From NCBI RefSeq assembly GCF_018873765.1, contig NC_057924.1:3348001-3412000 (forward strand): a DNA stretch of 64,000 nt, written 5' to 3'. This stretch comes from Telopea speciosissima. Lineage: Eukaryota; Streptophyta; Magnoliopsida; Proteales; Proteaceae. The notes beneath the pieces were generated by a model. The model searched no databases. It was not told where the DNA came from and worked only from the letters and a program-made list of their open reading frames with translations. Within the stretch, counting starts at the first letter, position 1. The number at the start of each line of letters is the position of its first letter. Below are positions 22,471 through 38,259 of this stretch, piece by piece. Position numbers and translations under genes: made by a program.

Positions 22471-22526
22471 GTGGAAAATTTTAGGGAAAATTACATGGGT
22501 GGAAAATTTTAGGGAAAATTACATGA
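22471..22526 (+). repeat. 28 bp tandem duplication of target site plus MITE tip
   Basis: Two copies (22471-22498 and 22499-22526) of a 28 bp unit that contains AAAATTTTA, the MITE's target duplication, plus the first 15 or so bases of its inverted repeat (GGGAAAATTACATG). The second copy continues into the MITE; the first is only a stub. Confidence 0.9.
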
Positions 22527-22934
22527 TTAGCTACTTTTGGGTTTTCATTTACAAAATTGTCCACCCTATGTTTGAGTTAACAAAAATAGACAAAAACAAG
22601 TTAAGGTTTATAAAACTGGACAAAATATTGTCTCTCCCTCCCACACTTATTTTTTTAGACATTTTTACCCCTGTCATTGCCTTCTCGTCCAGGCATCCTT
22701 TGTTCCCTGCAACCCTACCCTTGTCCCAGCCACCGCCATTCTCTGCTATCCCAAGTAACAAAGGAAAAAAAAAGAGATTTTTTCAGAGGGAAACTGTCGA
22801 GGAAGGAAGGAGAGTCACTGTTTTGTCTAGTTTTGTAAAACTAAACTTGTTTTTGTCTATTTTTGTTAACTCAAACATAGGGTGAACAGTTTTGTAAATG
22901 AAAACCCAAAAGTAGCTAATCATGTAATTTTCCC
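22512..22934. mobile_element. Mutator-like MITE, 423 bp, with perfect 9 bp target duplication
   Basis: The ends are inverted repeats of more than 100 bases. The left end starts GGGAAAATTACATGATTAGC and the right end is its inverse, with only a few mismatches through the GTTAACAAAAATAGACAAAA segment. AAAATTTTA flanks both sides exactly (22503-22511 and 22935-22943), the 9 bp signature of Mutator-like elements. There is no coding capacity; readings on both strands are mirror images from the long arms. Confidence 0.95.
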
Positions 22935-22943
22935 AAAATTTTA

Positions 22944-26061: not shown

Positions 26062-27519
26062 TCATATTTCCCTCGCCAAAGAAAACCCTATTGGATACTC
26101 CCTGTGGATTCTTGTTTTCGTCATCAAGACGTTTTTGGCAGGCTTGTTATCACAATCATTTTCTAACACTTTGCTCATCTTTGGCTTTTCTACCTCGCCT
26201 GCCTCAGCAGTTTCAACAATGAATTGTAGTCCCTGAAAGACAACAATTGGGGCAATAACATAGATTAGGGGACAAAGGAGTCCACACTCAAGGAAAAAAG
26301 AAAAAGTGGATATGGATTTTATTTTATTTTTTTTAATTTTAAAAGCTTCATTTTGCAGCATACCTTGAGCGATTTATCTTCATAGGCCACTGATGCACGT
26401 TCTGGTGGAAGTTTGGCACTAGTATCCTGGCACATCCAAAATGATACTATATCACCAACTAAGCAGAAGAATCAATGTGGTACCATCTGATTCTAAATGT
26501 ATCAGTCTTTGGACTGACCAGTATATTCTCCAGTACAAGAATTTCGATCTTGTTCTTTAGCTTAGGGGGACTGAACATTATGATTGCTTGGTTGCTAACT
26601 ACCTGTAGCATTCCTCTAATCAAGCTATTTACTCCAGTAAATTAGCTTGCCAATCCAAAAGGGATGAAGAAGTTTAAGCTAAGTAATTAAAATTATGAGA
26701 ACTTTTAACACCAACAGCAAGATGCTATCCAACAATGGATCAACTTGGAATAGCTTGCTCTGAAGAAGTTTGTTTTAACTTTTAACTCATGTGAAGTTCT
26801 AACACCCTCACGGGATACCAAACAATTGAGACATGGTAGTAACTTTGGTTTAGACTATTTAGTCAATAACAACTTACATGAACTTCTAAGTCGTTAACTA
26901 CCCAATGATTAAGCAAAGGAAGTAACTTAATCCAATGGATTAACATGGACTAGACTTTCCATAAGACGCTTAAGTGATGAAGAAGTTGCTTTAACTCCTA
27001 ACGATATAATGTGAACTTCTAACACCACTTACACGAAGTTAGCTACCAAATGATTGAGTAGATATAGTAGCCTGGATTTAGTCATCATTCCATAAGCTGA
27101 AGTTTATGTTTGTCCTGTCCATTACTAGTTCCTGTAATTAAGCAATCTGCAATTGTAAGTCTAATCTGATGGTTCAACTTGTGGCAACCCTAGTGAGGCA
27201 GGTGGTGGTGGTATTCATCAGATGCTCCACTAGGTCTCTAATTTCTTTCTTTTCTTCTTTTTTTCTGAATAAGTACTTTCATTTCTTGTTTCTATTTTTA
27301 CAATGGATGGAGTTACAATACTTTTTCTGAACTGAATACACTTTGTGATGACCTAGAGATGTGTCTGTGATTAGAGATCTCAAATATTTTGGTTGAATGT
27401 GGCTTGATACCTGTGGTGAGCTTCATTGATAAAGACAGTTGTTCAAGTGGGTAACATTTGTATATTTGGTGCAGAATTCACATCCGTATCCAACTCCTTA
27501 ATCCCATCTTTCCCATGGT

Positions 27520-27591
27520 TTCATTGAAAAGAACAAGGTGGTTGATGCATTAGCTAGAGAAGACTCTATTAATCATGTACCCGATTGAATC
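27520..27591 (+). mobile_element. LINE RNase H fragment
   Basis: A short reading FIEKNKVVDALARE fits the C-terminal end of the RNase H domain found in plant L1-type LINEs (N.VADALAR). It is only about 70 bases, lies in the DUF1664 intron between exons 10 and 11, and is 5'- and 3'-truncated. Confidence 0.45.
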
Positions 27592-28536
27592 CTTCAACCT
27601 GTATTTGGTTTAGTCTATGCCTCTTAGGCTAGCTTTGTTTGATTAAAGCCTTCTCTTTATCTTTTTTTTTTTTTATTGGGTTCTTGTTTGGAATTGAGTG
27701 CACCATGCCACAATCATATTTGGGTCTAAAGGGCTTACCAGTACCCCCTGCACTGTACTTGCTCCTATTTACTTCCTTGACTGACAAATTTGTCATGATT
27801 GCCAGGGTCCCAAAGTTCAGGGGTCATTAAAAAAAGGCATGCACCCTAAATCTGGTTTTAAAACAATGATAATAATGAAAACAATCCATTTCAAAATAAG
27901 TGATAAAGCTGCAAACAATCACAATGTCCGACCTGAAAAAGGTTAGCATTGAGGCCTTCTTTAATGCCTCCAGCAAATTGACATAGATACCAGAGACCAG
28001 AATTAGTGACATCCTGCAAAATGTTCAGAAAAGGGAAATAAATCACTTCACAAACTCTAAGTGGGTGAAGCAAACTGAAAGGAGATATATTCACAATGAC
28101 TGGTCTTGCAGACATATACCTGTTTGCTTTCAAGAAGTCCAATCTTTCCTTCCTGCTCATTGTAACAAAAATTTAGAACATCAGTCCAATACTCATCCTG
28201 TTGACCTACTCTACCTATAGCATGCTGGGCCTATTTTGTATATAACTTACCAATCCAGTTACCATTTTTTGAATTGTTTCAATATCAAATCCAATTTGAG
28301 AAAGATCCGACTTCACCTTATTTACCTAATAAACAAGTTGTAAATGCATTAAAAAGACAGTTTACCAACCCTAATTTGAATAATAACAAGAGAATAGAAT
28401 TGATGCATACTCACTCTTAAAAGAACGAATGACCAATTAGCTAATGAATTAAGACTTGTAGGGTCCACAAACTCCCCTCACCCCCACCCCCAAAAAACAG
28501 CCAGACAAACATACACAGGTAAACCTAATCTAAGAG

Positions 28537-28698
28537 CGTCCCACTGCACGAGGCTCCCGCTACTGCAGGGTCTGGGAAGGGCAAATGTACGCAGCCTTAC
28601 CCCCTGCTTCATAGGAGAGGCTGTTTCCTAGTTTCAAACCCGCAACCAACAGGTTGCAGTAGTGCAACTTAACCATTGCGCCAAGGCTCACCTACTCT
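28537..28698 (-). mobile_element. Au-type SINE with 16 bp target duplication
   Basis: Read on the minus strand it has a tRNA-like head with an A box in TTGGCGCAATGG, a B box in GGTTTGAAAC, and the Au core AACAGCCTCTCC...GGTAAGGCTGCGTACA. It ends GAGCCTCGTGCAGTGGG. AAACCTAATCTAAGAG flanks it exactly on both sides (28521-28536 and 28699-28714). It is full length for the family, about 160 bases, and sits in the DUF1664 intron between exons 7 and 8. Confidence 0.95.
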
Positions 28699-28949
28699 AA
28701 ACCTAATCTAAGAGATGAATATATAATCACATTCCACTTCCCAAATGGTAAGGCCATTTAGAAGAATAACTAAATACCTTTCACAATATGATTCTCTATG
28801 GTATGGTCTATTTCTTATCTATGTATGAAGGAAACACTTATTTGTCATTTATAGGCCATTTCCACACGTATCAGACACCAGCATGTGTGTCCATACTAAC
28901 TGAGCAATTTGTACATATATTGTGTCCTCCAAAAGGAAAATTAAGATTT

Positions 28950-28984
28950 GGGGGGGAGGGGGGGGGGGGGGGGGGAGAGGAGGG
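28950..28984 (+). repeat. G-rich tract in DUF1664 intron 7
   Basis: GGGGGGGAGG followed by about 18 G and GAGAGGAGGG. It has quadruplex potential on the plus strand, and is C-rich in the DUF1664 transcript. Confidence 0.85.
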
Positions 28985-30374
28985 AGATTTTTACAGAATA
29001 AAACATAAAATAGCTGCAACCATGGATTGACTACAGGAAAAACATAATTATGACATACAGATGTGTCTATGTCGAGTTTTTAGGATTGCTGTATCAGACA
29101 GCTCATATCCATGTCAGGTGCCAATACACATTTCCATGTCCTTTTCTATGTTGGATACTGTGAGCATACAATTTCTACTCTCGCAGGTCTAGAGAGAATC
29201 TCTAGACTGGTGCATATATCTACTAAGTGGTAGATTGGATAGAGCTGAATTTTTGTGGATAGGTAGACCCCAAGGTCCCTCCATAAGTCAAGTTTCAGCA
29301 AAAAATAGAGTTGGTCAAATGGCAAAATAAAGTTTTGAAAATCCGGTGAAAAATGGCACATTTCCAATAAGAATGGACGGCTAAAAATATAACAGAATCT
29401 CACAATACATGGGAGGGTGTATGGATGAATCTGAGTCTGAAATTTGACTTGTGCCCATTCTAGATCATTTCTAGATATCCATATGGTTGAAATTGCCACA
29501 TAACCCTTCCATGTGGCAAAACTTGGTGCTGAACTAGAGATACCCTCTACTCTTGCCAGACTAGAAAAATATTTTGCCTTTATTTATACGCAATAAAGAA
29601 TCTTATGATCCCCCTCAAGTTGATTATTCATGAGCAGCTGAAAAGTCAACAGACAAGCACCTTGTCCTTTCTGTTATGACTGTGAAACATGTTCGTAAGA
29701 ACTTCCAATTGATCCAAAAGTTTCCTCCACCTGGATTCAGGATTCTTGGGAGTTCTCCAATTATAGCCCTTACCACACTTCTTGGAGATGTGTAGCATGA
29801 ACCAGATCAATTAAAAGATATCAACCTTATTAAAATATCATAAAGGCATAAAATAATTACAAGTGCACACAAAAAACATGGGTGTGAACATAATTTACCT
29901 CATTCATGATAAGCTTTGAAATTTCCTTCTGCTCATCCATCTTTACATCCAAGTTCTCAAGCCTCTGCGTCAGATGCCATTTTGTTGACTGTAGCATTGG
30001 TAACAAAATTTCATCAAGCTTGCTGATGATAAGACACAATAAGGAAAATCCTGTAAAAGATCAATCAAGAAGCTAAAAGAAGATTTAAGAGAGTAATGAA
30101 TCTTCAGCCAGAGGGATTATCAGTTCCTAGACATACAGCTAAAGCTGAAGATACTAGCTCCAACTGCTTAGAAACATTTGCAACAGCACTGGCCATATTA
30201 CGTTTTGTAACAAACATGACATCAGAAAATGACCATCCCTGCACATACACAAAAAAAAACATTAATTTAAAGAAGAAAACGAAGTAGCTCTCATAGCCGG
30301 ATCTTGAAATACCAAAAAAACAGCCTCTTAGGTTCATGAGATCATCAATGATAGAATCTTACCTTCCACCACAT

Positions 30375-30390
30375 ATAGCAGATTAGCAGT
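30375..30390 (-). other. hAT-type excision footprint in DUF1664 exon 5
   Basis: In coding sense the exon reads GGAT-ACTGCTAA-TCTGCTAT-ATGTGG where the conserved protein (GYCYMWWK) requires GGAT-ACTGCTAT-ATGTGG. So an 8-base site ACTGCTAT is duplicated. The last base of the first copy and the first base of the second are replaced by their complements (T to A, A to T). An 8 bp duplication with complementary changes at the junction is the known scar left when plant hAT elements excise through hairpin intermediates. Simple slippage would not predict the two junction changes. Confidence 0.8.
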
Positions 30391-32179
30391 ATCCCATTGC
30401 TCCAAGTGCAGCAGCTGGCATAATGTAAGACGCAAAATTCCCTGTGCAAAAGAGAAGAAGACAAGCATCACTCAGTATTTATTGGTTACAATGCATTGAA
30501 TTTTGTTGCCAATATCAGATATAATTTTCGATGGACTGCATAGAAGCTTTGGGAATATCGAAGACTGCAAAACACATTTGGACATCAAATGAATCATGCA
30601 CACAACCGAACATAGGGATCGCAACAGATTGGGTACAGAGTGCATTCTGTCATTAGCAAGCTCAACCTTAACTGCCCCATTCAGTGAAACATGCAAGGGA
30701 CTTCCTTTTCACAATGTAAATACGGCAGCATCCTGCAGGTTGAGGCCAGGTAGGGGCCCTGGGTTTTTTCAAATATGAAACCGAACCCTATTCTTATGAG
30801 CCCACTGTGTTGCCATCCCTAGCCCAACCCTTTCATAGATGATAGATACTCACTAAGGCTGACTGAACAAAAAAATTGAATTGAGCAAATCTAGTGCATC
30901 TGTGGTGCAGACCTCAAGGGCAGCCTAGTAGCTGTACCCCTCTAAAAATGATGCACGTGAAAGGAGTGGGACCCACCAATCCTTGTGTTCCATCTACAAG
31001 ATGTCTAAAAGAACAGCCCCATCCTCATAGATTCCAATCTAATTATTTTCTTTTGTCAGATAGACTTATTTTAAGGGGGCAAAGCAAGAATGCAATAATT
31101 TGGATCGCCACTTTCATCCAATCAAAATCATTACTGCCTTGGGTGATCTCCTGGTGCAGCCCATAGAGTGGTGGGTCCCAACTCAATGCATAAATGCCAT
31201 GGCTGCCTGTGCTTGCTGGAATTTGGTACATGATACTCCATGAGTTTGCTGTGATGCTGAGAACAGGAAAGTGAGATATAAAAATCAATGTACGCACCAG
31301 TCCCACTAGAATCAGAATTTCCATTGAAAATGGTCACAGGATTGGACAATGTCAATTCCCTGATTTCCTGAGCCAATTGTCAAATCTGAAAGTAACAGGA
31401 AACAGAAAACATAATGACAACTTTATGAAGATAGGGTGAACTAAAAATTTACTTCAACCTTCACATTTTATAGAAATGAAACTCACAAAGTTATAGCAAA
31501 ATGACAAGAATAACCTTCCAACAGGATATAAAATAGAGAATATGGAAAGAAGAAATATCAACACATACCAAAAATTAATCACACTAAATCTCTCTCTCTC
31601 CCTCACATATCACATATGTTTATTTCTTTTGGCACTGAAAGGAAAGAGAGAGCTATGAAAGCAAGAAGCAAATTCTCATCCTCAAGGTTAGGGTTATCCA
31701 ACGGAATATGGAGGTCAACCCTTTTACCCTCATGCCACTGATAACAACCACAACTATTCCTGGTATCTCTACATTTATAGACAACTTGGTATGAACTATC
31801 ACTCGCAAAACCAATCCTTCATCATTTGGTCAACACATCTACAAGAAGAGAAACTAATTCCCTCCTCCTGCATATCATGTGTAAATAACCAAGTAAAAAG
31901 AAAGAAACAAAGTGCAGCTATTATGTGTTCTTATTTAAATTTGTTATGAATTAATTTTTCTACTTCCATAGTCAAGAAATTAGTGCTCCATCGAAAATGG
32001 TTTAAATTACTATATACGTTAATCCTGTTAGATTTCCATCTCAAAAGATCAACCTGTTAAGTGGAGGTACTACCAAGTATATTAACGGAATGGGGATCTC
32101 ACTCACAGCCAATATGGGATTTAACAAATCCGGAAATTGTGATTTAATTCTATAATAAAACTGACAACATCTCTTAAAC

Positions 32180-32272
32180 TTAAGGATATTGAGCCTAGGC
32201 GTCCAAGCTCCTTGGTCGCCTTGCATCCAGGCCCCAATGCCTTAGAGTCGCCTAGACGTCGTGACAACTATG
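32180..32272. mobile_element. End of a CATAGTTGTCA-type element
   Basis: The segment has subterminal CCTAGGCG, CTTGGTCGCC and CGCCTAGACG motifs and finishes CGTCGTGACAACTATG, identical in form to the right end of the element at 2354-3582. I could not find a matching left end, so it is a truncated or internally deleted copy inside a DUF1664 intron. Confidence 0.6.
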
Positions 32273-32374
32273 ATTCTACCCGAGTCCCAAGACTTCTGCA
32301 TGATGCGTAGAAGCCTACCAAACCTTGCATAGGAGGAAGATATCACTTATCACTTCTACTCTTCATTCTCCTAA

Positions 32375-32530
32375 GGTACGAACGAGTACACATAATTCAA
32401 TGATAGGACTATGCTCTGCAACACCTAATTGCATCCACTTATCCTTATGCTCTTCACACTCCAGAGGTATGTGTACATATAATTCAAAGATAGGACTGGG
32501 TGCTCCGCAACACCTAATTGCATACCTGCT
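32375..32530 (+). repeat. Imperfect direct duplication of about 65 bp
   Basis: 32375-32440 and 32464-32528 share ATAATTCAA.GATAGGACT and GC..TGC..CAACACCTAATTGCAT. They are about 85-90 bases apart. Function unknown; located in a DUF1664 intron. Confidence 0.75.
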
Positions 32531-35500
32531 CATGTTCAGGATCCAATCCTGTGAGCAACAAAGGTATGTAGTTCCTGGCAACATCTTCTTTAACTTCTTA
32601 GCATCATCATCAACGCAAGGGACTGAAGATCTTAATAGTAAATTAACTCCTCCCGCACATCATTAGCTGGGAAAAACAGGTAGCAAGTGACTTTGCTTCT
32701 TGCCTCAACTGTGAGCTGCACTTCTACCCAAAAAAAAAAAAAAACTGTGAGCTGCACTGTCGTCGCTAATTGAGATATGTATGCACAACTGCACCCCAGA
32801 TTGCCTCAGCAGTCTCTGGGAACAGAAAGAAACAAGTTACATTGGGTTGTTCGTGATGAAGGGACCAGGTCTTTAAAAGTAGAGTCAACCGCGATCTACT
32901 TCTCATCAGAAGCATTTGAAGGATCAAGTTTATCTACAGTCTTTCCAATAAGATAGCATCTTCCCTTTTCTTTTGAAAAATAACATGGCAGACAGGGACC
33001 AAGACAAGAGTTGATAGCATCCAACTTTTCTATAATAATATGAAGACCAGGAATCTCACCTATGTCCCCATAGAAGAAAATAAGTAGGAAACACCAGAGG
33101 TTTGGCTCACTTTAGACATTTTGTTCACACTTTTCTTTCACTACAACTTTCTCATAAACTAATTGAGTGCACATACACAAAGAACAAAGAGTACATACTC
33201 CAAAACAGTCAACCACCACTTAAATAACACAACCAGCTATGTATGGTCGCAAACTTTCTCTAACTGTAACCCAATACGTCTACACACAACCACATTGGGT
33301 ATATACACTTCCAAAAGCATAACACCATCATCAAGACCCACAAATCAAACACCAATCACCACGAAGAGGAACTCCAGATGCCAAAATCTCACTGTTAGGG
33401 TCAAATCATCTGGAATAGTTCCAAAAAGTTCCATCTCATGAAGTACTGACCTTCACCAAAGCATTGACCCCCAGTGGTGGATATCCGCAAAACTTCCTTT
33501 CGCAGTGTTATCCAAATATGAAACCTTTTGAACACTAATCCAAATAGGAAACCTTGTGAAAACTAATTCAGAAATCATAAAAGCTGTTTTATCATACCAC
33601 TGAGATTAAATAAACATAGAAAACTCTGGTTCAACTAGGAGGCTGATAATAATCAGTCATTGGTATGAGAAACAGGATCACCTACTATAAACATCATAGA
33701 GCAACCATTGCAATAATGAAGTTGGAAAATAGCATATTAAACGCCCTAGGCTGTTGTAGATTCAAAATATAATTCCATAGTGGAAAAAGTTTGGATACCA
33801 AAGGAATAAGAATCTAATTAATACCTGAGCTGCAAGAAGAGAAGTATCATACCGGTTCGGTGAAATCTCCACTTCATTCGCTCCCTTAATTAATTCCTGA
33901 GAAAGAGATATAACTCCACTTATTAGGATCAATAGAGATGTCCAAACAGAGCACGACAGCACAAAATGCTGCAATCTGTTAAGAATCCTTGTGTAACAAG
34001 AAAAAAGGAATAAGAACCTTCACCATTTATCGAGCCATGTTCACAACAACACAAGAAATTCATAGAAAATCACATTAAAATAAAAACCTCCTTCCCAGTT
34101 CCACCCCCCCCCCCACAAAAAAAAAAAACAACAGTAACCTCAATGGTTTCACCATATCAAGTTGATTAGGCCTTAACGGGATATCATGCAGCAAGCTATG
34201 TGAAAGTCAGATAAAGCTACATAAACTGCTCATTAACTATTTCACACAAGCTCTCCATTTCCTTAACAGTTTTCTAAAAATTTTAAGTAACAGCAGAAAC
34301 AGGTTTTCTGCAATTACTGACAGCAATGCCGTGAAATTTTAAGGGTTCAATCAAGCTTACTGCATATACAGCCATTTAAAATCTGTTATTACTGTATGAT
34401 GTAATGAGTTCCAAACCATCCATCTGATAGGGAATACCCTCCATTGACCATCTGATGGGGGATAGTTTTACTTTTCAAATTCTAAATAAATTATGAGGAA
34501 AGGGACTCTTCTCTTCAACATGGAAGAGGTCTCTTGGGCTAAAAATTTACAACTGAAGATGGGATGACGTGCAGAGGTACCAAGAATGTAAGATTTCCCA
34601 TTTCCAATTTTTGTCCCTGTGAAATTAACGTCTTCAAAGGATAGATAACTCAATGGGAAATGCGTAAAGTAGTTCTTTCTTGCCATTGGAAATCTTCAAT
34701 ATTGGCACATTTTTATGAGATATATGCTCGGCAATGAATCAATTACCTGAAGTTGCAAAATTACATCAGACAACCGACCGCTCCTCAAAATAACAGAACC
34801 GGTCAATCCTAAATAATAGAGCAAGATAAATGAAGTTAGCCAACAATAGTTCTCAAAAAAAAAATTATGTGGCTAGTAGGAAAACAAGGGTGTGCAAGTG
34901 TGCCATTTGTCTTTACCAATTATAATAACTGATGCTACGATGATCCAAGAAAACAAACACCCTTTGATTTTCAAAAGTTGACAGCTAAAATCCCACAGAA
35001 GGGAAAACTATGTCATAGAACATGAAGGTAAATAAACAAACACAACACAAAATAAACAATAATATGAGTAGAAAGTCATCTACATGTATTCCTAAATGCA
35101 ACTAGACCCATTCATGAGGTATTTTCCTTTTAGAGATTATTGTAAGGATCACAACTACTCATAACCTATTCTCCTTAAAAAAGGAAGGAGAAAATGAGTT
35201 CCTTTCAACATGTATAATGAAAGTTAATATCAATTTAATGGTTCAACATTTAAATACCAAAAACATATCCATACCCTAGGAACTTGCATACTCTAAGAAT
35301 CATACTTGATTAGTTGGATTATTTGAAAATGAATATATAGTAATATTCAGGAAATAGGGATGAAAAGACGAGTATGGATTTGGATGTGTTTTTTACATGT
35401 GAAATATACTTTCCTGAGTGTTCTGATACAATGTTTTCTAATTTGTTTGGTTTTAGATGAATCTCAAGCAGTTCTAGTTGGGTTTATTTCATTTTAGTTT

Positions 35501-35575
35501 TAATATTTCAGAGGTCTACTTTTAGTAGCTGAATCAATTCACTCGTTTGAGTGAAAGCAGGGGTCTACATGGAGC

Positions 35576-36364
35576 CATAGTTCTAAAACTCGTCGGCGAG
35601 ATCTCGGCTCTCATCTCGGTTTTCTGAGAAACCGAGACGAGATGGCATACCGTACATAAAAGTGCAATATCTCGCCGAGATCTCGGCGGGATCTCGGGTT
35701 GACCCATGGAAATGACCATTCTATTATGTATTTACTTACCTAACTCGACAGAACTCGACATATCTCGGCGAGATCTCGGATCTCGGGTTGAGATCTCGGG
35801 TTGACCCATGGAAATGATCCATCTACTATGTATTTACTTACCTAACTCGACAGAACTCTTATATGCTTGTTGTGGAGCACTATATGCAACATTACAGCAA
35901 CACTATGTCATGGGAAGACTATGTGACACTAGCGGGGACTGAATACTTGATTCAAAGTCATTTTATGTGATGATAGTTGTAACACTGTTAAACAGTTTGA
36001 TGTATCACTTTAACAATTCTGATTCTTATTTAAGTTGTTTAGCTATTAATTGAATGATTTGCTTGCTTTCTATTACTAAATTATGTGTAGAGTAGGGTAT
36101 TTTAGTACATCATCACCTACCAACCTATAGTCCAAATTGAAACTCATATTTGGACTTTGTTTTTGCAAAATATGATAGTGCCATTATGTTTAAATGGCCT
36201 AAAATAGGCTGAATACCAAGTTTCAGACCCAAACTAGGTCTAAAACCCACCGAGTTGAGGCTTTGAGTAGGAAAAAAAAAAATGCACCAACTCAGTGAGA
36301 TCTCGACTCGACTCAGTTTTTCCAAGGGCCGAGTTGGTACCGAGACCCGAGTTTTAGTATCTTG
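35576..36364. mobile_element. Non-autonomous hAT-like element with 8 bp target duplication
   Basis: CATGGAGC flanks both sides exactly (35568-35575 and 36365-36372). The left end is CATAGTTCTAAAACTCG and the inverted right end CAAGATACTAAAACTCG, matching at 13 of 17. Subterminal GAGATCTCGG motifs are repeated many times in the first 220 bases and again, in altered form, near the right end. It has no transposase reading. The perfect 8 bp duplication favours hAT. It is located in intron 1 of the DUF1664 gene. Confidence 0.85.
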
Positions 36365-36902
36365 CATGGAGCTTCGTTGAAAAAATTAAATAGTATGGAA
36401 GGGTGAAGCTCTATATAAACCACTTCTTGTTTTATTCTATTAAGTTTGAGGAATAATGGTTTCTTGATGCTCTGGCTTTGGTGCCAATACAAACCCTTTG
36501 TACCCTTGAAGGTGCTGATAGACGGATACTTTTAATAACCTGCGTGATGATTCCTAAAGTCAGCTGGTACTAATTCCTGCAGAACTGATCCTCCACTTTT
36601 TTTTTTTATTCAATATTCATTTAGATTTTCAGCTGAATTCTCCATACACCACAACCCTAGCATAAGATCCATCAAAATATTTTGCATCAAGTCCATAAAT
36701 CTCCATAGCCCATTCAACTTATGCCCCAATCAACCACAATATGTATACCCACCCCATGCATTTTGTGGTTGCTGCAGTTGCACGTTAACACAGTTACTGT
36801 CAGATCATTCCACTTTAACGAAATACATCGAACTATGCATTTTTGTGGTTGCAAAATGCAAGGTTACTTGCAACCTAACTAAAATCAAATTCAAACAAAT
36901 AT

Positions 36903-37025
36903 GGTGTACCCAGTGCACGAGGCTCCGGCCAGTGCAGTCATAATGTACACAACCCTACCCCCCCTTCGCAGAGAGGCTGTTTCTTGACTCAAACCCACGA
37001 CCACTAGGTTGTAATGGAGCAACTG
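36903..37025 (-). mobile_element. Au-type SINE, 5'-truncated
   Basis: Minus-strand Au core: GTGGGTTTGAGTCAAGAAAC, then AGCCTCTCTGCGAAG, GTTGTGTACATTATGACTGC and GCCTCGTGCACTGGGTACAC. It is in DUF1664 intron 1. The tRNA-like head is shortened and no clear target duplication is visible. Confidence 0.85.
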
Positions 37026-37744
37026 TTAGGGACTTTGGTAGAACTCATCCTTAAAAGCTAGCCGTTAAGGAGAGGGTGCCCAAGTACCTGTAAGCCTATT
37101 CAGGTCCGATGTGGGATTATGACTTCTGCCTTCTGCATGGAACTCTCTCCCCCTCCACGCGAGAGCAACCAAGATCTTCCCCCATCTCTCCCGCATTGGA
37201 TTATTACTTCCGCCTTCCAAGTAGAACCCAACAATCTTCCCCTCCATGCAGAAGCAACCAAGATCTTCCCCATCTCCCCCTCCATGCGAGAACAACTGAG
37301 ATCTTCTCCGACTTCATCCTCGGAGGCACACCGGGGGTTCCCACGCCCTAACTCTGCCACAACCTTGCCCTACCATGCCTGATACCACTTGTTGGGAATG
37401 AATATGCAACCACAAGGAAGAAACCAAACAAACAATCAAACACAACACGAGGAATTTACAAGGTTCGGCACGAATGCCTGCATCCACTAGAGAGAACCAA
37501 ATATTTTCCATTAAATCTGAAAAACTCTCTACAGTACTCTCTACCTCACAAAGTGATCTTCCCTTTGTTTGTGTCTAGGGTTTGCATAATAGAGACACTT
37601 TATAGGAAATCCCAAAACCCTAATCCCCACACAATTACAATTTTATCCATACATGTAATGGACCAAAATCCGACCCAATTACAAATACAAGCCCAATAAT
37701 AAATATATGAACCCGTTTAATACAAGACACACCCAACCCCAACA
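37026..37744 (-). mobile_element. LTR-element fossil: LTR, primer site and internal repeats
   Basis: 37390-37744 has LTR-type ends, TGTTGGGAATG and CCCCAACA. Directly left of it, on the minus strand, is TGGTATCAGGC, an initiator-Met-type primer site, so the 355 bp segment is a 5' LTR in minus orientation. The adjoining 37110-37389 carries three imperfect repeats around CAACCAAGATCTTCCCC. No protein is encoded and the other LTR is not recognisable. It is a small TRIM-like or truncated copy in DUF1664 intron 1. Confidence 0.6.
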
Positions 37745-38259
37745 GCAACATTACCATGCGCTGAGGTCCACCCTCAAAATCAAACTCAAACACAAAGAGG
37801 TAATACAAAGAAAAAAAGAGGCCATCATTACGATGCTTCAGGGGGATCATACAACGCCAAATTGAATTGTGACGTCAAAATCCAATCACTCGATATCAGC
37901 TCCAATCGAGGTCGTATTTCATGTCTTATTTACAACAAATTTTGTCTTCGCTTCTTGCTATTCACATGGTGAATGAAAAATGGAAAATATTGTTCATAAG
38001 TTCATGACTGAAAACTCTCTCACCACTCCCAATAAGTTTCTGATAAATATTTGAAGTACAGTGCGGAAGATCTAATTTGATCCAGTATAGAAGAACAAAT
38101 CAAACAAGAAAAGCAAGACCAAATCACGTTCCAAAAAGTAGATAATCAATGAAAACAAAGACAATGAACGAACACGGAATCAGACTGAGAAAGAAGCTTC
38201 TGACCTGCTCCGACGAGAACGAGAACTTTAGAAGTTGAAACTCCGGTCTGCATCGCCAT

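Follow-up and report, generated by a model that had tools for sequence, protein, structure and literature searches.

A 16-bp sequence in the fifth exon of a DUF1664 gene copy (positions 30375-30390, minus strand; defined by the 16-mer itself and by comparison with a paralogue on contig C10) is best explained as the scar of a hAT-superfamily transposon that inserted there and was subsequently excised, an explanation that we hold to be very probable. This reading is well supported because the paralogue is shorter by exactly 8 bp, the bases at the junction are complementary, the duplicated octamer fits the target preference of hAT-like elements in this genome, and three further scars were validated by their own paralogues. 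The window, the whole 64-kb stretch of DNA analysed, is part of contig C9 of an 823-Mb genome, presumably that of a plant. The hAT excision proposed in the initial annotation is therefore retained as the best explanation of the scar, but not its further assertions that the excision inactivated the gene and that such a record is rare.

The exon 5 site and its duplicate on C10

The DUF1664 gene copy of the window comprises twelve exons on the minus strand (26062-38259). They were modelled from their homology with a colinear duplicate, located on C10, with which the introns are also partly alignable; exon 1 spans 38259-38205 on the minus strand and exon 12 ends at 26062. In the C10 copy all twelve modelled exons are open and encode 319 residues, and the product of exons 2-12 matches Pfam family PF07889 with an E value of 4.3e-49. 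The C10 duplicate has a GC splice donor instead of GT after exon 5 (C10:46,558,496).

Exon 5 of the window copy (30441-30363, minus strand), delimited by its AG and GT splice borders and by the paralogue alignment, is 79 nt long, versus 71 nt in C10. The difference lies in the 16-mer formed by ACTGCTAA followed directly by TCTGCTAT, which in C10 corresponds to the single octamer ATTGCTAT, so that the duplication of exactly 8 bp claimed from the sequence is confirmed by the paralogue. The two octamers have a 6-bp core in common and differ at the junction, where T is changed to A in the left octamer and A to T in the right; at both positions the base is the complement that hairpin-mediated excision of a hAT element is expected to leave, as had also been claimed. 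The eight extra bases shift the reading frame and introduce an in-frame TAA, while at five DUF1664 loci of more distant relationship (C3 at 2.7 Mb, C3 at 3.3 Mb, C8, C9 at 11.0 Mb and C7) the GYGYxWWK stretch is uninterrupted at the position of the scar. The statement that conservation demands a single ACTGCTAT holds in part: a single octamer is present in C10, but it reads ATTGCTAT, a synonymous C/T difference, and exact ACTGCTAT is absent at the scar site.

By itself the motif is unremarkable, eight 16-mers of period 8 with both junction bases complemented (complement/complement) being found within the 64-kb window; at 30375-30390 it becomes meaningful because the paralogue reveals a clean 8-bp insertion. 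The exact 16-mer has five matches genome-wide, three of them with the flanks of one repeat, so this count says little, and leaving both junction bases open gives 11 matches, including the same five. An assembly or sequencing error at this place is scarcely credible, since an exact hAT junction at a hAT-like target is not expected from error and a DNA search returned only this site and the C10 copy, with no second contig to contradict it.

Footprints of the Ac/Ds system, which belongs to the hAT superfamily, are described as joints centred on the complement of the base beside each transposon end, arising through the formation and opening of hairpins (PMC5873905). The scar resembles them in its complement-centred joint and in the proposed hairpin opening and end joining (PMC5873905), but differs in that the element and its excision are observed in Ac/Ds, whereas at 30375-30390 we infer the insertion, the excision and the identity of the element. 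In the sequence of events envisaged, an element of the hAT superfamily, perhaps short and non-autonomous, would have entered exon 5 in one of the two DUF1664 duplicates, duplicating the octamer ACTGCTAT. Excision by a hAT transposase would have left hairpin-capped flanks, the opening of which would have swapped the outermost base of each octamer for its complement, T becoming A in the left octamer and A becoming T in the right one. The octamer ends would then have been joined without loss, so that eight extra bases stayed and the frame was shifted. The marks of a hAT footprint are found together here: a single octamer in the paralogue, a complemented junction, a fitting target, and a genome with hAT transposase genes and their mobile derivatives.

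A second lesion in the gene copy

The scar is sufficient to break the frame of the window copy. That the excision was the inactivating event is nevertheless not established, because exon 4 (31385-31298), upstream of the scar, holds a nonsense codon: the exon starts with ATT TGA in the window copy versus ATT CGA in C10, the premature TGA being its second codon (31380-31382, minus strand). Translation of the window copy would end after 64 codons, short of the scar. Apart from these two lesions, the modelled exons of the window copy are open and have usable splice borders. Joint skipping of exons 4 and 5 would preserve the frame, giving 267 codons, and might thereby rescue the window copy.

The divergence between the window copy and C10 amounts to a dN of 0.071 and a dS of 0.209 (NG86), with a dN/dS of 0.34 (NG86) or 0.44 (YN00) over 298 codons. 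Ten amino-acid differences in four aligned stretches could be divided into three assigned to the window copy, four to C10 and three to neither. A long-neutral pseudogene is not supported by these ratios or by the split of three versus four, although both amount to a weak test; because of the dN and dS figures and the even split of assignable changes, the decay of the window copy looks recent, on what is weak evidence.

Excision alleles of a comparable kind are known from Petunia, where the hAT-like dTPH1, a 284-bp non-autonomous element that produces an 8-bp duplication, leaves mostly out-of-frame alleles upon excision from coding sequence (PMC4735711). The 8-bp duplication and the out-of-frame allele in a coding sequence are shared with the present case (PMC4735711), but the dTPH1 alleles are induced mutants of a laboratory line, whereas the present allele is fixed or belongs to a single individual and is accompanied by a further lesion upstream.

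hAT elements and their targets in the genome

The hAT transposase domain PF05699 gave 1799 first-look candidates, and all of the 150 that were scored exceeded the cut-off; among the matches listed, its open frames reach 749 aa. Copies of two hAT-like miniature families, the former with CATAGTTGTCA ends and the latter with CAAGGTTTAAAGTAT ends, are flanked by 8-bp duplications. The former is very common, with 179 and 181 strand matches genome-wide for one strict pattern. Sixty miniature copies were fetched, namely 53 of the CATAGTTGTCA-end pattern (among the matches listed) and seven places of the CAAGGTTTAAAGTAT-end pattern. Perfect 8-bp duplications flank 23 of the 60 and duplications matching at 7 of 8 bases flank 15 more, versus none and two, respectively, of 3540 mismatched pairs.

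The target consensus of these duplications is nTTnnAAn. On the matrix derived from them ACTGCTAT scores 2.0 bits, which ranks it among the highest 4.5% of the octamers sampled from the window and above 15 of the 23 true duplications, and its register is the best of 16 around the scar site; its position 2 deviates from the consensus. Target duplications of 8 bp are not unique to hAT elements, since some Mutator-like or P-like elements may produce them too, and the scar itself does not name its element. An origin in such another superfamily is, on the other hand, very unlikely: the characterized miniature families are hAT-like in their ends and their nTTnnAAn target fits the octamer, in a comparison that covers hAT-like families.

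Several other element-like sequences were observed. The C10 duplicate carries an intronic 364-bp member of the CAAGGTTTAAAGTAT family (C10:46556949-46557312, in the stretch 46,556,937-46,557,324), flanked by the 8-bp duplication CTTGCCAG; it is absent from the window copy, in which just 28 bp separate the flanking aligned blocks. Within the window, CATAGTTGTCA or its reverse has three end-like matches (at 2354, 3572 and 32262), the last of which corresponds to TGACAACTATG in intron 3 of the window copy (32262-32272), whose letters are those of one end of the CATAGTTGTCA family and where one end only is delimited. At 22475-22943, GGGAAAATTACATG occurs in inverted copies with AAAATTTTA on their flanks, possibly representing a different small inverted-repeat element.

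Period-8 junctions and a possible wider record

Near-duplications with a unit of 8 bp and an aligned paralogue were collected from seven stretches (188 kb) and sorted by junction type. A paralogue shorter by exactly 8 bp is seen at four of the eight complement/complement sites, including 30375-30390, versus none of the 22 sites with other junction types (p 0.0026, or 0.0096 with 30375-30390 left out; per alignment, 4/11 versus 0/25). Several of the tests were picked after the first excess had appeared. The other three sites (C8:3,759,110, C9:10,992,457 and C9:10,996,191) are likely to be hAT scars near other DUF1664 genes. The complement/complement class thus behaves unlike other near-duplications of equal length.

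These data also bear on repair of a break without any transposon, in which a short templated or tandem duplication would arise through patch repair or end joining, either as 6 bp (CTGCTA) plus a filler AT or as 8 bp followed by two substitutions. Of the short insertions in rice, a large proportion are tandem duplications (PMC7971508). Such repair is active in the present genome as well: exact near-duplications exceed random expectation at every unit length tested, from 6 to 10, and at unit 7 the paralogue is one unit shorter at two of nine exact and five of 54 other sites, with 0/2 for complement/complement sites (at unit 9 the figure is 0/11 over all sites). Plant patch-repair duplications resemble the scar in being short head-to-tail insertions (PMC7971508), but the available portion of that source describes no complement junction, fixed 8-bp unit or hAT target for them. 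At 30375-30390 the copy is not an exact tandem one, 6/8 bases being copied and both junction bases differing. Break repair predicts neither complements at both junction bases nor a hAT-like target, and fails to predict that 8-bp-shorter paralogues are confined to the complement/complement class; we consider it an improbable origin for this site.

The hAT reading is further addressed by the composition of junctions. In 280 kb, 25 of 210 unit-8 junctions are complement/complement versus 13.7 expected (p 0.003), an excess that is lacking at units 6, 7, 9, 10 and 11; in the fresh 70 kb alone the count is five versus 3.0 expected, which is not significant. The hAT target cores are better at complement/complement sites than at the remaining ones (p 0.0019). 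A 2x2 table (20, 14, 20, 22) shows no significant association between the two junction changes (p 0.23). Among the matches listed genome-wide, the core TTGGAA at 8-bp spacing has complement/complement junctions in 23 of 100 cases versus 9.2 expected (p 5e-5), and the reversed core in three of 100 versus 8.8; all ten inspected TTGGAA places have different flanks. When only distinct 16-mer types of this core are counted, five of nine possible types are among the 50 seen, which is not significant (p 0.16). For TTTCAA the figure among the matches listed is 26/100 versus 10.8 expected; five of eight inspected places of its commonest 16-mer belong to one repeat family, and a conservative count among the matches listed is 20/94.

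Match counts were also considered as evidence of scars, TTGGAA at 8-bp spacing giving 303+314 matches versus 101+100 for the reversed core. The same threefold ratio over units 6-12 (3828+4027 versus 1272+1236) indicates that it stems from core abundance, and the argument was dropped; only junction composition is kept because match counts reflect that abundance. Among 100 TTGGAA matches listed for units 6-12, those with units 6, 7 and 8 number 20, 36 and 13, respectively, unit 8 not being the commonest.

The view that the exon 5 scar is a rare record is contradicted by the complement/complement excess at period 8 (25/210 versus 13.7 expected), and further by the four paralogue-validated scars in 188 kb. 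A partial literature search brought up no study surveying such hAT scars, and their absence from the literature is not claimed. Taken singly, the exon 5 scar adds a new case to a class of mutation that is well understood; greater interest attaches to the wider record of scars. We see an even chance that a large and still readable record of hAT excisions is preserved in this genome and can be validated by paralogues of the same assembly. If the excess in the 280 kb were typical, about 30,000 such scars would be present genome-wide, a figure extrapolated from a small sample, much of it taken from the surroundings of a single gene family. Should the record be real, the share of departed transposons in the breaking of duplicate genes could become countable. 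Duplicated segments of one assembly can serve to validate the scars of elements that have since left, and past hAT excisions could be counted from a single genome.
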